Shown here: piece after piece, positions 2,107-8,237 of the stretch
How the letters are laid out: every line of letters begins with the position of its first letter
How positions within the stretch are numbered: position 1 is the stretch's first letter
Notes under the pieces: model-generated
Told to the model about the DNA's origin: nothing
What the model saw: the letters and a program-made list of their open reading frames with translations, nothing else
The model's database searches: none
Translations under genes and position numbers: made by a program
NCBI GenBank assembly: GCA_020719045.1
Contig: DYQY01000014.1
Coordinates: forward strand, 1-35,102
Length of the DNA stretch: 35,102 nt
Reading direction: 5' to 3'
Source of the DNA: Candidatus Termititenax sp.
Lineage (GTDB): Bacteria; Margulisbacteria; Riflemargulisbacteria; GWF2-35-9; DYQY01

Positions 2107-3597
2107 TCATTTCCCAGAGGAATTAACTTTTCTTTTCTTATAAACTGTTATCGCTACATCTATTGCTCTATCAACCTTCTTATTCTCAGCTTTTTGAGCA
2201 AACCTTAGCTTAAAATCGATTATCATAGAAGCGATGTTATTGTCTAAAATCTTTTTAATATTATTTAAGTTTGAATTATCTTGTCTTGTACAAAACAGCA
2301 TACTTTCAATCAAGATTTTCGCAGTATTTTTTGCCTCTTTACCAAAGAAATCTACAATACTTACCTTAATATCTTCAAAATAGTTCCTTAATGTAGCTTT
2401 AGCCTGTTCATATTCTTCTTGAATCCTTAGTGTTTCTATTCTTTGCAATTGGGTGTTAATATCCTTCATTAACACATCCAGCTCTTTGTCAGAAGCCTCT
2501 AACTGAGCAGATAACCTTTCTAATTCTCGTTCTTGTAATGCGTCCTGAATACGACCAATTACTTCAGCCACTGCCTCTTCCTTACTTAATCCACGTCTCA
2601 TACGTCTCTCAACTGCTCTTTGAAAATAAACATTATTAGTATCTACTGCAACTTCACCTGTTTCTGTATTAAAAGAAAACACAGCTTCCAATAAATGTCC
2701 TTTAACAAACCCACGATTATGCCCAAACTTGTGCTTAACTTCTACAGAGTCAGCTTCTTTATAGTCTAAACACTCGGTACTTTCTTCTCGCATCCCATTA
2801 TTTACAAAATGATTTTCATGACCTTCCTTAAAATGTTGACTATACTCTATAGCATCATAGCCCTTAGCCATAGCATGCTGTAATACTCCCTTTACCTTAC
2901 TCAGTTTATCTACATCATCTGTATTTAGATTCATACTGCTAGCCACTTTGTTCAGTCGGATAGCTTCTCTTTGTTTTATAATAGATTGTGTACGATCACT
3001 AACTGTTTTAATAAAACTAAATTTATTACTTGTCTCTCCACCATTATCTGCCGATTGAGTTTCTGGTGTCATATTTGCTTGGTCTACCATAGAGCTCTCT
3101 GTTGCTTGTTTTTTTGGACTAAAGACTTTATCAAATCTTTGCATTGCTGTTTTATCTTCCAGCTCAGCAAGCACTTGCTTAACTGCTTCTTTAAGCTCAG
3201 GATTCTCACTTAGAAGCTTAACAACTTCTGCCATCTTATGGTCATTCTGTTCTAGCACCTTATCAAACAAAAACTTCATCGCAAATCTCGCAAGGATTAT
3301 TTCCTTATTATCTACTGAAGTAAATTGATTGGAAAAAGCCGATGACAAAGATGGGAGACTTTTGCCACCACCGAATACCGACCTAAGCATACCGTCAACA
3401 TCGCTAGCTTCACTAGAATTCTCTGCAATAGTAATATTATGCATACTCACTAAAACATCTCTAGTTAAAGGATCCAATCCTGTCTGCTCTACTGGTAGCT
3501 GTACTAAAGTATTTTTGGGTTCATTAGGTTTAATAGTATTATTATAATTATTTAAAAAAGCAACTACTTGTGATGTATTTAGATTAACTGAACTCAA
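2107..3597 (-). CDS. unknown coiled-coil protein, about 496 aa
   Basis: I do not recognise this family. There is no signal peptide or membrane segment. The N-terminus is Ser/Asn/Thr-rich and probably disordered (1-100); residues 105-150 and 350-498 look helical, with a heptad-like Glu/Leu/Gln-rich coiled coil at about 350-408. An in-frame stop immediately precedes a TTG at 3603, so only TTG starts are available. The GGAGG sits 3 nt from that TTG but 9 nt from the TTG at 3597, so I prefer 3597. A 29-bp sequence repeated elsewhere in the window lies about 37 bp upstream and may be promoter DNA. The Ser/Thr-rich start without a Sec signal would suit a substrate or component of a type III-like apparatus, but that is inference only. 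Confidence 0.6.
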   Translation of the reverse strand: MSSVNLNTSQVVAFLNNYNNTIKPNEPKNTLVQLPVEQTGLDPLTRDVLVSMHNITIAENSSEASDVDGMLRSVFGGGKSLPSLSSAFSNQFTSVDNKEIILARFAMKFLFDKVLEQNDHKMAEVVKLLSENPELKEAVKQVLAELEDKTAMQRFDKVFSPKKQATESSMVDQANMTPETQSADNGGETSNKFSFIKTVSDRTQSIIKQREAIRLNKVASSMNLNTDDVDKLSKVKGVLQHAMAKGYDAIEYSQHFKEGHENHFVNNGMREESTECLDYKEADSVEVKHKFGHNRGFVKGHLLEAVFSFNTETGEVAVDTNNVYFQRAVERRMRRGLSKEEAVAEVIGRIQDALQERELERLSAQLEASDKELDVLMKDINTQLQRIETLRIQEEYEQAKATLRNYFEDIKVSIVDFFGKEAKNTAKILIESMLFCTRQDNSNLNNIKKILDNNIASMIIDFKLRFAQKAENKKVDRAIDVAITVYKKRKVNSSGK

Positions 3598-3633
3598 GCG
3601 CAATTACCTCCATTAGTTATATCTAATTGAAAG

Positions 3634-3906: not shown

Positions 3907-5355
3907 CTATTTGTATTTAATATCATAAAACCCAGAATCAACTTCTTCTTTTGGAGCTGCGTCACAATATTCTAATAATTCAAACAAATACTCTTGACCT
4001 AATGGGATATCTCCACCTTTATAAGTTTCCTTAACAGCTTCAAGCTTTCTAACCGCTTCATCCTTAGCTTTTGCTACAGATTTTTCTTTAGTAAGAATTC
4101 TTAATACCATTAAATCTCCTTTAAACATATCTTCAATCTGCCTATATTCAGGCATCCAGCCCTTAGTCCTAGAAGAAAAATCACTATAAAAGTATTGCTC
4201 TGACATACTAGATAGTGTATCAATAAATAGTGACCGCGCAACCATTCTCATTGTGCTACCCTCAACCACATCATCTCTGTAGCTTATCTTTAAATTATCA
4301 TATTTTTGAATAAATGACTCATCTCGCTTTTTGCCATTCTGTATTGATATAAGGTAATTAACTAACTTATCCTTATAATTTGGAGATACATTTAAACTAT
4401 TTACTAGTTCCTTAACACTCACATTACTAGCTACTTCTAGCCATTTGTTGCTAGTCTTATCTGTTACTATGCCCTTATTACCTTTTTGTTTCCAATTATA
4501 ATCAGTTATTAATCCTACTCTATCTAACTCTTTCCACAAGGAATATAGCTCAACTCCATCTATCTTTAGTTCTCTACCTAGCTTTCCAACTGTACTTACT
4601 CCACTATATTCCTTTAATAAATCCTCATATTTAACTAAGCATCCTAACATCTCCACAATACCACTATCAATTTCAAGCAAACCTGATCTAACTTCACGAT
4701 CAATTACTGGCATTGTTAAATAGTCCATATCCATACCATAGTCTTCCAGCTTTCTATGTGAAGCATAATAATAATAATATTTCTTTGCTAATAACTCAGT
4801 TTTATCCGTAAGCCATTTTGGTCCACTACCACCTTCAGGAAATGCTCCATTTTCAGCTTTCCATTTTAATATTTCATCAATTTTGTTTTGGTTTTCTTTA
4901 GTAAATTTCAGTATTATCTTATGAGAATCATTACCGAGTGGTCCTTTTTCTACTAGTCCCTTGCCTAGTACCATACTTGCTGGAGGCATTAAATATAAAT
5001 CTGCTTTAGTGATGTTTGGATAAAGAAGCCTTCTAGTATCTGTAACCATTTTGAATTCCTCTTCTAAATCCAAATAAGTAGTTTTAAAGTACTTACTAAC
5101 ATCCACTACAAACTCAGGTTTAACTGGCTTTACAGCTTCTGTTTTGGCAACCTCTGCTGTAGCTTGTGCTTCATTTGCTTGTTTAGCAACTATTACATTT
5201 GGAGGGGTTATTGGGTTAGTCGCTACAGATACTTTAATATCTGGGTTTTGAGTTACAGTTGTTGTGGTTGGAAGGCTGTAGTCATTTGGCAAACGAATCC
5301 CTCCTTTAATAATTGGATATTTAACTCCACCTACTGTTATTGTATCGTCTGCCAT
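3907..5355 (-). CDS. twin gene 1: unknown 482-aa protein with variant C-terminus
   Basis: I do not recognise the family. The protein looks soluble, without signal peptide or membrane helix. Residues 1-80 are Thr/Pro/Ala/Val-rich and likely disordered. Residues 85-404 look folded; about 251-290 (TVGKLGRELKIDGVELYSLW and onward) resembles a winged-helix unit, though that call is weak. Codons 1-404 appear identical to twin gene 2, while residues 405-482 match it only loosely, keeping IPLGQE and the terminal IKYK. A clear GGAGG lies 6 nt before the ATG. The abrupt change from identity to divergence inside codon 405 points to recent gene conversion or a recent recombination-driven duplication between older paralogues. 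Effector, surface-export and regulatory roles all remain open. Confidence 0.75.
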   Translation of the reverse strand: MADDTITVGGVKYPIIKGGIRLPNDYSLPTTTTVTQNPDIKVSVATNPITPPNVIVAKQANEAQATAEVAKTEAVKPVKPEFVVDVSKYFKTTYLDLEEEFKMVTDTRRLLYPNITKADLYLMPPASMVLGKGLVEKGPLGNDSHKIILKFTKENQNKIDEILKWKAENGAFPEGGSGPKWLTDKTELLAKKYYYYYASHRKLEDYGMDMDYLTMPVIDREVRSGLLEIDSGIVEMLGCLVKYEDLLKEYSGVSTVGKLGRELKIDGVELYSLWKELDRVGLITDYNWKQKGNKGIVTDKTSNKWLEVASNVSVKELVNSLNVSPNYKDKLVNYLISIQNGKKRDESFIQKYDNLKISYRDDVVEGSTMRMVARSLFIDTLSSMSEQYFYSDFSSRTKGWMPEYRQIEDMFKGDLMVLRILTKEKSVAKAKDEAVRKLEAVKETYKGGDIPLGQEYLFELLEYCDAAPKEEVDSGFYDIKYK

Positions 5356-5465
5356 TTCTTTCCTCCAAATTTAAATTTCTACTGTTTCTTATCAGTGTTC
5401 TGTTCCTTTATCGTTTTCTTTTCTCATTTATTGCAGTTATTTTATATGGATATTTTTTGATGGGT
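4143..5465. repeat. 1,323-bp direct repeat, left copy
   Basis: It runs from codon 405 of twin gene 1 through the start codon and 110 bp of upstream DNA. It matches 6878-8200 at a constant offset of 2,735 bp, and I found no mismatch or indel in the stretches compared by eye. Both copies face the same way, so homologous recombination between them would delete 2,735 bp, including the zeta-like gene. Confidence 0.9.
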
Positions 5466-5483
5466 ATTGGAAGGCTCGTTTTT

Positions 5484-5541
5484 ATCCCCCTCTTAATAAT
5501 TGTATTACTCCAATTATTAAGTATCCCCCTTATAAAGGGGG
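5484..5541. repeat. C/G-rich palindromic cluster left of the DUF559 remnant
   Basis: Two adjacent hairpins. The first is an 11-bp perfect stem (CTTAATAATTG 5492-5502 / CAATTATTAAG 5511-5521) flanked by direct ATCCCCCT repeats at 5484 and 5523. The second is CCCCCTT-ATA-AAGGGGG at 5525-5541. The second is almost the same as the hairpin right of the DUF559 remnant (5722-5738), so the two probably belong to one inserted unit. Confidence 0.7.
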
Positions 5542-5566
5542 AATATTTTCATGTATAATTTATTTT

Positions 5567-5719
5567 ATGACTTATTACATAGATAAAGATTGGTTAAAAA
5601 ATAATGGTCTCATTTCTAACGGAAAGACACCGCCATATAATCCAAAACTTATTGATAGAGCGAAGCAACTTAGAAAAGAAATGACTAAAGCAGAATGTAA
5701 ACTATTAACAACCATATAA
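5567..5719 (+). pseudogene. truncated DUF559-family gene, N-terminal remnant
   Basis: The 50-codon frame contains YNPKLIDRAKQLRKEMTKAE, which closely resembles the N-terminal signature of DUF559 proteins (a small restriction-endonuclease-like fold, usually about 110-150 aa). The frame stops at TAA as it enters the right-hand C/G-rich palindrome, so the catalytic part that should follow is missing. Palindromes lie on both sides. In my recollection DUF559 genes are often found with such C/G-rich palindromic repeats; I treat that as unproven. The gene is probably non-functional here. Confidence 0.65.
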
Positions 5720-5768
5720 TTCCCCCTTCATAAGGGGGATACCTTTGCTGAAGCAAAGGAGGGGGATT
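5720..5768. repeat. C/G-rich palindromic cluster right of the DUF559 remnant
   Basis: Hairpin CCCCCTT-CAT-AAGGGGG (5722-5738) is followed by CCTTTGC-TGAA-GCAAAGG (5742-5759) and then AGGGGGATT (5760-5768). The last run can also pair with the first CCCCC to enclose the inner hairpin. The first hairpin differs from the one at 5525-5541 only in its loop region. Confidence 0.7.
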
Positions 5769-5796
5769 AATTCAATATAGAAGCTGTAGGGATTAT

Positions 5797-5812
5797 ATAA
5801 AGATTGAACTTA
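5797..5812. repeat. 16-bp match to the S1-gene promoter region, copy A
   Basis: ATAAAGATTGAACTTA occurs here and at 8202-8217, where it supplies the TTGAAC -35 box of the S1-protein gene. Its position beyond the DUF559 segment suggests that the twin duplication originally extended into the S1 promoter. Confidence 0.6.
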
Positions 5813-5858: not shown

Positions 5859-6428
5859 ATGAAAATGAACCCTGTATGTTATATAATATCTGGACCAAAT
5901 GGCTCAGGAAAAACAACCTTTGCAACCGAATATTTACCTAAAATTGTAAACTGCAAAAATTTTGTAAATGTAGATATGATTGCCCATGGCTTATCACCTT
6001 TCAATTCAGAATCTGTCAACATTAAAGCTGCAAAACTTTTTCTGCCTATTATCAATGAGTTAGCTGAAAAAAAAGAAACTTTTGCATTTGAAACAACTCT
6101 ATCAGGACTAACCTATATAAGATTCATCAAAAAACTTCATTCTCTAAATTACAAAATAGTCCTCTTTTATCTATGGATCCCAAGCGCATCATTCTCTGAA
6201 AAAAGAGTAATATCTAGAGTACAAATGGGCGGACATAGTATTCCAAGAGAAGCTATTTATCGTAGATATAAAAAGTGTAATAAAAATCTTTTAGAACACT
6301 ATATGCCTATATGTGAAGAAATTTATATTTATAACAATGCATCTATCAATCCAGTAATGATTGCTGAGAAAATAAATAATAAATTATCTATTTTAGATAA
6401 TTCGATATATAATAAACTTTATGAATAA
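5859..6428 (+). CDS. zeta-toxin-like P-loop kinase
   Basis: A 189-aa protein of the zeta toxin/AAA_33 type. Zeta toxins phosphorylate UDP-N-acetylglucosamine and so poison cell-wall precursor supply; many chromosomal relatives are uncharacterised small-molecule kinases. Visible features: Walker A GPNGSGKT near residues 12-19, Asp in NVDMIAHGLSP near 39, the FAFETTLSG segment near 78, and a basic region with RVISRV and RRYKK near 120-145 where the family has its arginine-bearing lid. It overlaps a 43-codon gene whose type usually accompanies these kinases. The pair lies between the two 1.3-kb direct repeats, so it would be lost if they recombined. The fold is confident; toxicity is not established. 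Confidence 0.8.
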   Translation: MKMNPVCYIISGPNGSGKTTFATEYLPKIVNCKNFVNVDMIAHGLSPFNSESVNIKAAKLFLPIINELAEKKETFAFETTLSGLTYIRFIKKLHSLNYKIVLFYLWIPSASFSEKRVISRVQMGGHSIPREAIYRRYKKCNKNLLEHYMPICEEIYIYNNASINPVMIAEKINNKLSILDNSIYNKLYE

Positions 6429-6552
6429 TACGAAAAATAAAAGTATTTTTGGACTTACTGCAGAAAAAGCATTAAAGGAAGCTGTAAAAAAAGCGGTATC
6501 CGAGCATAAAAGAAAAGGCATTCCAATAGTTAGCATTAATAAAACAGACTAA
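6421..6552 (+). CDS. small companion of the zeta-like kinase, putative antitoxin
   Basis: A 43-codon gene that begins 8 bp inside the kinase gene, so the two are translationally linked. It contains AEKALKEAVKKAVSEHKRKG followed by IPIVSIN. This is close to the pattern of small proteins commonly found beside AAA_33/zeta-like kinases: an Ala/Glu/Lys-rich helix, then a GxPI-type strand, usually ending in a short W-R-D-G-K tail. That tail is absent here, where the protein ends INKTD, so it may be C-terminally shortened. An antitoxin role is inferred from size, helix and position. Confidence 0.65.
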   Translation: MNNTKNKSIFGLTAEKALKEAVKKAVSEHKRKGIPIVSINKTD

Positions 6553-6644: not shown

Positions 6645-8090
6645 TTATTTGTATTTAATCTTATATATACCACGGTCAAGATCTTCTTGCGGAAGATTGT
6701 CCATATTCTCTAAAAATGAAAAAAGAAACTCTTGTCCTAAAGGAATCTTTCCCTTAAATTTTTCCGTTGTTTCAGAAATCATCTCGTCTATACCAGCTTT
6801 ACTACGACTTGCAAATTCTGGTCTTGAAACACGATTCAATGTATGGAATCTTGCGTTAAATAACTCTTCAAATTCAGTATATTCAGGCATCCAGCCCTTA
6901 GTCCTAGAAGAAAAATCACTATAAAAGTATTGCTCTGACATACTAGATAGTGTATCAATAAATAGTGACCGCGCAACCATTCTCATTGTGCTACCCTCAA
7001 CCACATCATCTCTGTAGCTTATCTTTAAATTATCATATTTTTGAATAAATGACTCATCTCGCTTTTTGCCATTCTGTATTGATATAAGGTAATTAACTAA
7101 CTTATCCTTATAATTTGGAGATACATTTAAACTATTTACTAGTTCCTTAACACTCACATTACTAGCTACTTCTAGCCATTTGTTGCTAGTCTTATCTGTT
7201 ACTATGCCCTTATTACCTTTTTGTTTCCAATTATAATCAGTTATTAATCCTACTCTATCTAACTCTTTCCACAAGGAATATAGCTCAACTCCATCTATCT
7301 TTAGTTCTCTACCTAGCTTTCCAACTGTACTTACTCCACTATATTCCTTTAATAAATCCTCATATTTAACTAAGCATCCTAACATCTCCACAATACCACT
7401 ATCAATTTCAAGCAAACCTGATCTAACTTCACGATCAATTACTGGCATTGTTAAATAGTCCATATCCATACCATAGTCTTCCAGCTTTCTATGTGAAGCA
7501 TAATAATAATAATATTTCTTTGCTAATAACTCAGTTTTATCCGTAAGCCATTTTGGTCCACTACCACCTTCAGGAAATGCTCCATTTTCAGCTTTCCATT
7601 TTAATATTTCATCAATTTTGTTTTGGTTTTCTTTAGTAAATTTCAGTATTATCTTATGAGAATCATTACCGAGTGGTCCTTTTTCTACTAGTCCCTTGCC
7701 TAGTACCATACTTGCTGGAGGCATTAAATATAAATCTGCTTTAGTGATGTTTGGATAAAGAAGCCTTCTAGTATCTGTAACCATTTTGAATTCCTCTTCT
7801 AAATCCAAATAAGTAGTTTTAAAGTACTTACTAACATCCACTACAAACTCAGGTTTAACTGGCTTTACAGCTTCTGTTTTGGCAACCTCTGCTGTAGCTT
7901 GTGCTTCATTTGCTTGTTTAGCAACTATTACATTTGGAGGGGTTATTGGGTTAGTCGCTACAGATACTTTAATATCTGGGTTTTGAGTTACAGTTGTTGT
8001 GGTTGGAAGGCTGTAGTCATTTGGCAAACGAATCCCTCCTTTAATAATTGGATATTTAACTCCACCTACTGTTATTGTATCGTCTGCCAT
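6645..8090 (-). CDS. twin gene 2: unknown 481-aa protein with variant C-terminus
   Basis: Residues 1-404 appear identical to twin gene 1, so the same description applies: disordered Thr/Pro/Ala N-terminus, mixed helical body, possible winged-helix stretch near 251-290. Residues 405-481 are its own. They begin TEFEELFNARFHTL where twin 1 has RQIEDMFKGDLMVL, and both return to IPLGQE(F/Y)LF and end IKYK. The two tails are therefore homologous but long diverged, in contrast to the rest of the gene. The upstream region is shared to base 8200, so the core signals should match, although the DNA beyond differs (S1 promoter here, DUF559 insert for twin 1). The gene is divergent from the S1-protein gene. 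Confidence 0.75.
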   Translation of the reverse strand: MADDTITVGGVKYPIIKGGIRLPNDYSLPTTTTVTQNPDIKVSVATNPITPPNVIVAKQANEAQATAEVAKTEAVKPVKPEFVVDVSKYFKTTYLDLEEEFKMVTDTRRLLYPNITKADLYLMPPASMVLGKGLVEKGPLGNDSHKIILKFTKENQNKIDEILKWKAENGAFPEGGSGPKWLTDKTELLAKKYYYYYASHRKLEDYGMDMDYLTMPVIDREVRSGLLEIDSGIVEMLGCLVKYEDLLKEYSGVSTVGKLGRELKIDGVELYSLWKELDRVGLITDYNWKQKGNKGIVTDKTSNKWLEVASNVSVKELVNSLNVSPNYKDKLVNYLISIQNGKKRDESFIQKYDNLKISYRDDVVEGSTMRMVARSLFIDTLSSMSEQYFYSDFSSRTKGWMPEYTEFEELFNARFHTLNRVSRPEFASRSKAGIDEMISETTEKFKGKIPLGQEFLFSFLENMDNLPQEDLDRGIYKIKYK

Positions 8091-8200
8091 TTCTTTCCTC
8101 CAAATTTAAATTTCTACTGTTTCTTATCAGTGTTCTGTTCCTTTATCGTTTTCTTTTCTCATTTATTGCAGTTATTTTATATGGATATTTTTTGATGGGT
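6878..8200. repeat. 1,323-bp direct repeat, right copy
   Basis: Partner of 4143-5465. Its left end falls within codon 405 of twin gene 2, and its right end lies 110 bp upstream of the ATG, next to the promoter of the S1-protein gene. Confidence 0.9.
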
Positions 8201-8201
8201 G

Positions 8202-8237
8202 ATAAAGATTGAACTTATACCCTATACATAGTAGAAT
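8202..8237 (+). promoter_or_regulatory. sigma-70-type promoter of the S1/der operon
   Basis: TTGAAC (8209-8214), a 17-bp spacer and TAGAAT (8232-8237) give a good vegetative promoter with a short leader before AAGGAGGT at 8253-8260. The first 16 bases repeat at 5797-5812. Confidence 0.65.

Follow-up and report, generated by a model that had tools for sequence, protein, structure and literature searches.

What are the 331 bases that stand upstream of one member of a gene pair and are missing from the flank of its twin, and are they the mark of a mobile element? The window, the whole stretch of 35,102 nucleotides analysed here, contains both twins. Base-for-base comparison shows that their upstream flanks match through positions 5465 and 8200. 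In twin 1, exactly 331 bases (5466-5796) then precede the 16-bp segment ATAAAGATTGAACTTA (5797-5812), whereas in twin 2 a single G is followed by the same 16 bases (8202-8217). The original prediction, made from the sequence alone, gave this count correctly. It described the extra bases as a DUF559 N-terminal fragment between matching palindromes, inserted in one twin as a palindrome-bounded element and perhaps moved by DUF559-type nucleases.

A putative DUF559 relic upstream of twin 1

The predicted element does not fill the 331-bp segment. It spans 289 bp, with ~16 bp at the left and ~26 bp at the right being spacer, and it is defective. Its features, with the basis for each, are as follows:

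5482-5770, + strand: entire element, 289 bp, a palindrome-bounded DUF559 element made defective by an internal deletion, with ends TTATCCCCC and GGGGGATTAA (alignment with the intact elements L061 and L062 of genome G001)
5482-5547, + strand: left palindromic arm (sequence; the arms of L061 and L062 also have two hairpins)
5493-5520: left-arm hairpin A, TTAATAATTG/CAATTATTAA
5525-5541: left-arm hairpin B, CCCCCTTATAAAGGGGG
5567-5719, + strand: DUF559 N-terminal fragment of 50 aa, beginning MTYYIDKDWLKNNGLISNGKTPPYNPKLIDRAKQLRKEMTKAECKL, without the catalytic part (open reading frame, DNA match to intact genes, alignment)
5695-5705, + strand: deletion scar ATGTAAACTAT, with ~247 bp of the gene gone (ATGTAAGCTAT and ATGTAAAACTAT of L061 flank the missing part)
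5716-5770, - strand: right palindromic arm, inverted (sequence, pattern search of the same genome)
5722-5738: right-arm hairpin B', CCCCCTTCATAAGGGGG
5742-5759: right-arm hairpin A', CCTTTGCTGAAGCAAAGG
5797-5812, + strand: 16-bp segment ATAAAGATTGAACTTA, common to 8202-8217, ahead of an S1-domain gene (sequence)

The two matching palindromes are real: TATCCCCCTTATAAAGGGGG (5522-5541, + strand) and TATCCCCCTTATGAAGGGGG (5722-5741, - strand) are the sole matches to the pattern TATCCCCCTTN{1,9}AAGGGGG in the 1.75-Mb genome, and the reversed-pattern control has zero matches in that same genome. The arms, at ~55-66 bp and with two hairpins each, are longer than the CCCCCTT/AAGGGGG core from which they were first recognised. 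Matches to a single arm are found elsewhere in this genome at C8:1072-1127 and C20:1860-1899.

Taken alone, the 50-aa fragment is not recognised by Pfam. We assign it to DUF559, as predicted, because at the DNA level it shares 87% and 83% identity, across ~180-190 bp, with intact DUF559 elements in G001, a genome of the same genus. These two elements, L061 and L062, supply the full-length genes with palindromes of the same type by which the prediction could be checked in relatives; they encode proteins of 137 and 142 aa, lie at unrelated sites and measure ~530 bp. They share 81% identity over 530 bp, and the limits of this identity are TAATCCCCC (left) and GGGGGAT (right).

In a three-way alignment with these elements, the window copy extends to the KAECKL codons and resumes only in the final few codons, which lead into the right arm. 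The missing part includes D70 to H87, and with it the near-invariant residues D70, E81-x-D83-G and H87. The scar ATGTAAACTAT is the counterpart of two imperfect repeats in L061, ATGTAAGCTAT and ATGTAAAACTAT, a pattern typical of deletion between short repeats. On the strength of this alignment and the repeat at the scar, we consider the window copy to be a dead, internally deleted relic and not an active element.

No significant target duplication was detected at the window element (p=0.37), nor was an intact gene cognate to its arms found in its own genome. The only intact DUF559 gene detected there, L008 (G000:C17:32741-33070), lies between trpB and trpA and has different arms. It meets the Pfam DUF559 (PF04480) model at 87.8 bits, which other intact relatives match too; its element ends in CTCACCCC/GGGGTGAG and is flanked by a 7-bp duplication, TAATGAA. 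No usable relative was found for the trpB/trpA flank.

Inverted arms accompany DUF559 genes

Across 80 DUF559 loci from relatives, 75 of them inside the phylum, inverted arms exceed the control maximum at 69 (median score 37.5 vs 18), with sequence taken 600 bp away as the control. In a second set, made up of 69 loci in named genomes plus 8 on viral contigs, arms scored above all such shifted controls at 58/77, in groups including Cyanobacteria, Oscillospiraceae/Clostridia, Patescibacteria, Ignavibacteriota, LCP-89 and Stahlbacteria. Viral contigs yielded 15 relatives, and phage carriage of these elements looks minor since matching arms were present at only one of the eight such loci tested.

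Arms are matched to the protein that they enclose. Within a genome, an element's own pair scores 35.5 against 19 for the arms of other elements (p=2e-16), and between genomes arm similarity climbs with protein similarity (Mantel 0.257, permutation maximum 0.085). The arms co-vary with the DUF559 protein, not with the host genome. Well-defined element ends, read by eye, are CCTCACC, TAATCCCCC and the like, and no gene other than DUF559 lies in the elements examined. A candidate rule that placed a stop codon inside the right hairpin was not upheld (4/34 by simple scan).

Empty sites and target duplications

Mobility of this class is well supported by sequence comparison. Three pairs of paralogs (L104/L105, L094/L095 and L061/L062) share sequence only inside the element; L104 and L105, both in G033, are alike from CCTCACC to GGTGAGG and no further.

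Empty sites, another check on the prediction, were found at two his-operon junctions. The first lies between a ROK-kinase-like gene and hisH (labels that are our own reading of the coding sequence) and is uninterrupted in eight genomes, with an element in two (G051 and G019). Both insertions have a copy of the stop/start overlap on either side, and in G019 the two copies match perfectly (ATGTCTTTAGC). This presence and absence does not simply follow the species tree: G068 belongs to the genus of G051, and its site is empty. The second is the hisH/hisA overlap, which in G033 reads ATGTTTGA[CCTCACCCC...GGGATGAGG]ATGTTTGA, an exact 8-bp duplication of ATGTTTGA, and is uninterrupted in G019, G029 and G048. 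Both hisH and hisA retain their stop and start in G033; we infer that insertions at overlapping stop and start codons are tolerated because the duplication keeps both reading frames. The empty his-operon sites have no palindrome. An ancestral segment in relatives would have refuted the prediction; comparison places the element-bearing state as derived at these two loci, which have comparable relatives, and leaves the window locus undecided.

Other sites are less fully resolved. For L095, only the right flank could be matched in related genomes and no empty site was resolved, and the L122 element is absent in G035, with flanks too diverged for the joint to be read. On plasmids of Synechocystis sp. 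B12, one DUF559 element (L140, CP101712.1) splits a DUF1156 gene, and another (L141) interrupts the BREX gene pglX. Uninterrupted homologs exist in both cases, those of L140 on other cyanobacterial plasmids, and both joints fall in variable linkers. A Pseudanabaena pglX (L152, cyanobacterial plasmid) contains two in-frame, gene-less palindrome pairs, one of them at the position of the L141 element.

With element ends defined by motif, exact repeats of at least 7 bp flank 6/35 elements vs 0.7% of swapped control pairs (p=1.5e-7); L008, from the same genome as the window, is among them. Target duplications are 4-11 bp, vary in length and are detectable in a minority of elements. Several long direct repeats at elements proved to be arm repeats and were rejected as target duplications.

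Gene-less units and dispersed palindromes

Besides its four DUF559 loci, G033 contains 27 readable gene-less units, 77-193 bp long, whose ends are of the CCTCACC/GGTGAGG type. These contain no other gene. Duplications of at least 4 bp flank 7/27 of them vs 3.3% of controls, including one perfect 10-bp duplication (TGCGTCATCT). Solo arms and pairs exist as well.

A search of 70 genomes from the phylum for two exact palindrome patterns gave 640 matches, and the reversed controls gave zero. Palindromes without a detected DUF559 gene, which would have spoken against the prediction, do occur in some genomes, yet palindromes are strongly enriched with the gene, being present in 35/39 genomes with DUF559 vs 12/31 without (Fisher 8e-6, an optimistic value because related genomes are not independent). 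A palindrome-bounded element is supported for the class by arms, arm-protein matching, paralogs, empty sites and duplications; the 331 bp as such is not the element.

The DUF559 nuclease

Residues of catalytic type (E43, D70, E81-x-D83-G and H87 in L061 numbering) show little or no variation among 70 intact proteins. Pairs of copies have dN/dS of 0.04-0.17, and the nuclease is, by its sequence, under purifying selection. Profile searches return 3HRL (8e-32) and the homing endonuclease I-Bth0305I (PDB 3r3p, 1.5e-5). A structure model (mean pLDDT 86) has the same top structures, with 3r3p at 5e-4 by fold; an R2 retrotransposon protein and Vsr (1cw0, E=0.16) are weak matches only. Vsr is a mismatch-repair nuclease that nicks T:G mismatches next to a site of cytosine methylation. 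Profile and predicted fold together place DUF559 as a single-domain Vsr/EDxHD-like nuclease related to I-Bth0305I. No transposase family matched the tested protein in Pfam (L008) or NCBIfam, and we know of no strand-transfer domain in DUF559.

Neisseria 3hrl and E. coli YcjD belong to the DUF559 family and are read in published work as Vsr-like repair-type nucleases, not as mobile-element genes. Caulobacter VsrA, of the same Pfam family, is likewise read as a Vsr-like repair nuclease and not as a mobile-element gene (PMC12907096).

A proposed mechanism and its alternatives

Our preferred reading, to which we assign a probability of about 0.65, is that the window holds the relic of an arm-nuclease-arm, transposon-like element whose DUF559 protein recognises the arms, nicks, inserts and moves gene-less units in trans. 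The protein would recognise its own arm pair and nick both the ends of the element and, a few base pairs apart, the target; the target would be cut with a short stagger, and repair would leave the 4-11-bp duplication. Host repair or replication would be needed to finish the insertion because DUF559 shows no strand-transfer domain. Gene-less units moved in trans by the same enzyme would give rise to families of REP-like palindromes. In the window copy, a deletion between short imperfect repeats would have removed most of the gene.

Comparison among genomes establishes the arms, their matching to the protein and movement to non-homologous sites, and likewise the empty sites, target duplications, gene-less derivatives and purifying selection on the nuclease. 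The enzyme's part is inferred: there is no biochemical or in vivo evidence for DUF559 as the mobility enzyme, for arm recognition or for nick-and-insert chemistry, and the role is deduced from the absence of any other gene in the elements and from the arm-protein matching. Of the predicted movement by DUF559-type nucleases, then, mobility of the class is supported and the agent is still conjecture. The broader proposition is a phylum-spanning class of transposable elements served by one enzyme alone, a single-domain Vsr/EDxHD (DUF559) nuclease able to recognise palindromic ends and to insert them with short target duplications; we judge it an even bet.

The main rival keeps the elements mobile and makes DUF559 a passenger or accessory, with a host DDE or HUH transposase acting in trans on arm-bounded DNA. 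DDE transposases are compatible with 4-11-bp target duplications, as a matter of general knowledge, and some genomes have palindromes but no DUF559. A Legionella repeated segment that recombines often has both a transposase and DUF559 (PMC12308824), which also suits this account. We nevertheless find it rather unlikely, though it cannot be dismissed: elements examined have no gene but DUF559, the arms match that protein and not the resident genome, and the gene-less units of G033 enclose no other gene.

A separate question is whether the 331 bp were inserted into twin 1 as one piece after the twins arose, which we consider unlikely. The flanks do agree on both sides, but they belong to a tract that is nearly identical between the twins:

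4121-5465, - strand: twin 1 portion of the homogenised tract, sharing 99.4% identity with 6856-8200 (alignment)
6856-8200, - strand: twin 2 portion of the homogenised tract, with no element past 8200 (alignment)

Identity is 99.4% across the 1,345 bp of this tract, against only 69% in the adjoining C-terminal part, and in the sister species (G001) an equivalent twin pair shares ~39% protein identity. From these values we take the twins to be old paralogs that were recently homogenised, with the end of the tract coinciding with the 331-bp heterology. Because the tract stops there, the difference between the twins alone is no proof of a one-piece insertion, and twins 1 and 2 are, as aligned, not a clean filled/empty-site pair by themselves; the predicted insertion in one twin is not demonstrated by comparing them. 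The copy is, moreover, defective, with no cognate gene detected, and the 331 bp include spacer outside the element.

G001 has an intact element of another subtype (L060) upstream of its twin 1. In the spacer of its twin 2, before the S1-domain gene (L060 locus, G001:C33), we noted TATCCCCCTCAGTC, which resembles an arm start and has no partner, at the position where the window's twin 2 has nothing. These two features suggest repeated hits on the twin-spacer region.

The twin genes themselves (3907-5355 and 6645-8090; 482 and 481 aa) have no Pfam match. Their C-termini are diverged, and the sister species has its diverged pair at the same place, adjoining the S1-domain gene. Between the window's twins lies a Zeta-toxin-like P-loop gene (5859-6428; Pfam Zeta_toxin 3.4e-9), absent from the sister species' locus as read, and then a short ORF ending near 6552. 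Beside the twins, 2107-3603 encodes a 498-aa protein with no Pfam family above cut-off. No Rfam families were found in the window.

Homing is also unlikely in our view: here DUF559 would cut at solo palindromes already in place, or at sites like them, and homologous repair via the arms would copy the element in. Homology to I-Bth0305I, the existence of solo arms and pairs, and the same place in pglX holding a full element in Synechocystis and a gene-less pair in Pseudanabaena are all compatible with it; the empty his-operon sites, however, are free of palindromes, and the insertions made target duplications, which palindrome homing would not produce. We set aside as very improbable that the palindromes are ordinary transcription terminators around an immobile gene: G+C-rich hairpins near gene ends often are terminators or attenuators, but the arms match as mirror images, homology ends at their outer limits, elements also lie inside coding genes, and the empty sites and target duplications contradict it.

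Relation to known systems

Several known systems resemble DUF559 elements in part. REP/REPIN sequences with RAYT (TnpA-REP) likewise have a gene between inverted palindromes, dispersed gene-less singles and inverted pairs, and palindromes that co-vary with the protein. RAYT, however, is an HUH Y1 transposase, whereas DUF559 elements have a Vsr/EDxHD-like nuclease and no HUH Y1 gene between their palindromes. REP ends bear GTAG/CGTC tags in place of CCTCACC/GGTGAGG, TAATCCCCC or similar, and unlike REP/RAYT, DUF559 elements have target duplications and several gene copies per genome. By analogy, DUF559 mobilising palindromes would be a nuclease counterpart of RAYT/REP, an inference.

With insertion sequences and MITEs, DUF559 elements share terminal inverted repeats (69/80 and 58/77 loci; the window arms are inverted too), short target duplications (in the class, though not detected in the window copy), internal-deletion derivatives, gene-less units and insertion in and beside genes. 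They differ in having no DDE, tyrosine, serine or HUH transposase, only one nuclease of ~110-140 aa, and in having long palindromic arms rather than simple terminal repeats. The EDxHD homing endonuclease I-Bth0305I (PDB 3r3p), known to drive mobility of its own gene, has a related catalytic domain by sequence and predicted fold. In contrast to it, DUF559 elements lie outside introns and inteins; they occupy many non-homologous sites, among them plasmid genes and his-operon junctions, and have palindromic ends and target duplications. Rickettsia palindromic elements (RPE) resemble the Pseudanabaena pglX case in being in-frame palindromes in coding genes; to our knowledge they have no link to DUF559.

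Our search of the open literature found no description of palindrome-bounded DUF559 mobile elements; an earlier one cannot be excluded because subscription literature was outside the search. The closest pointer in it is the Legionella repeated segment that combines a transposase and DUF559 (PMC12308824). DUF559 is a widespread family that is seldom mentioned in the open literature. Many bacterial genomes have REP-like palindromes without the known GTAG/CGTC tags, for which DUF559 is a candidate explanation. If the preferred reading is true, a small nuclease alone driving insertion with target duplication would be an unusual route of transposition. It would also provide a source for the large families of 'orphan' REP-like palindromes that cyanobacteria, gut Clostridia and candidate phyla carry, account for palindromes inserted in frame into coding genes, and change the annotation of DUF559 genes and short palindromes.
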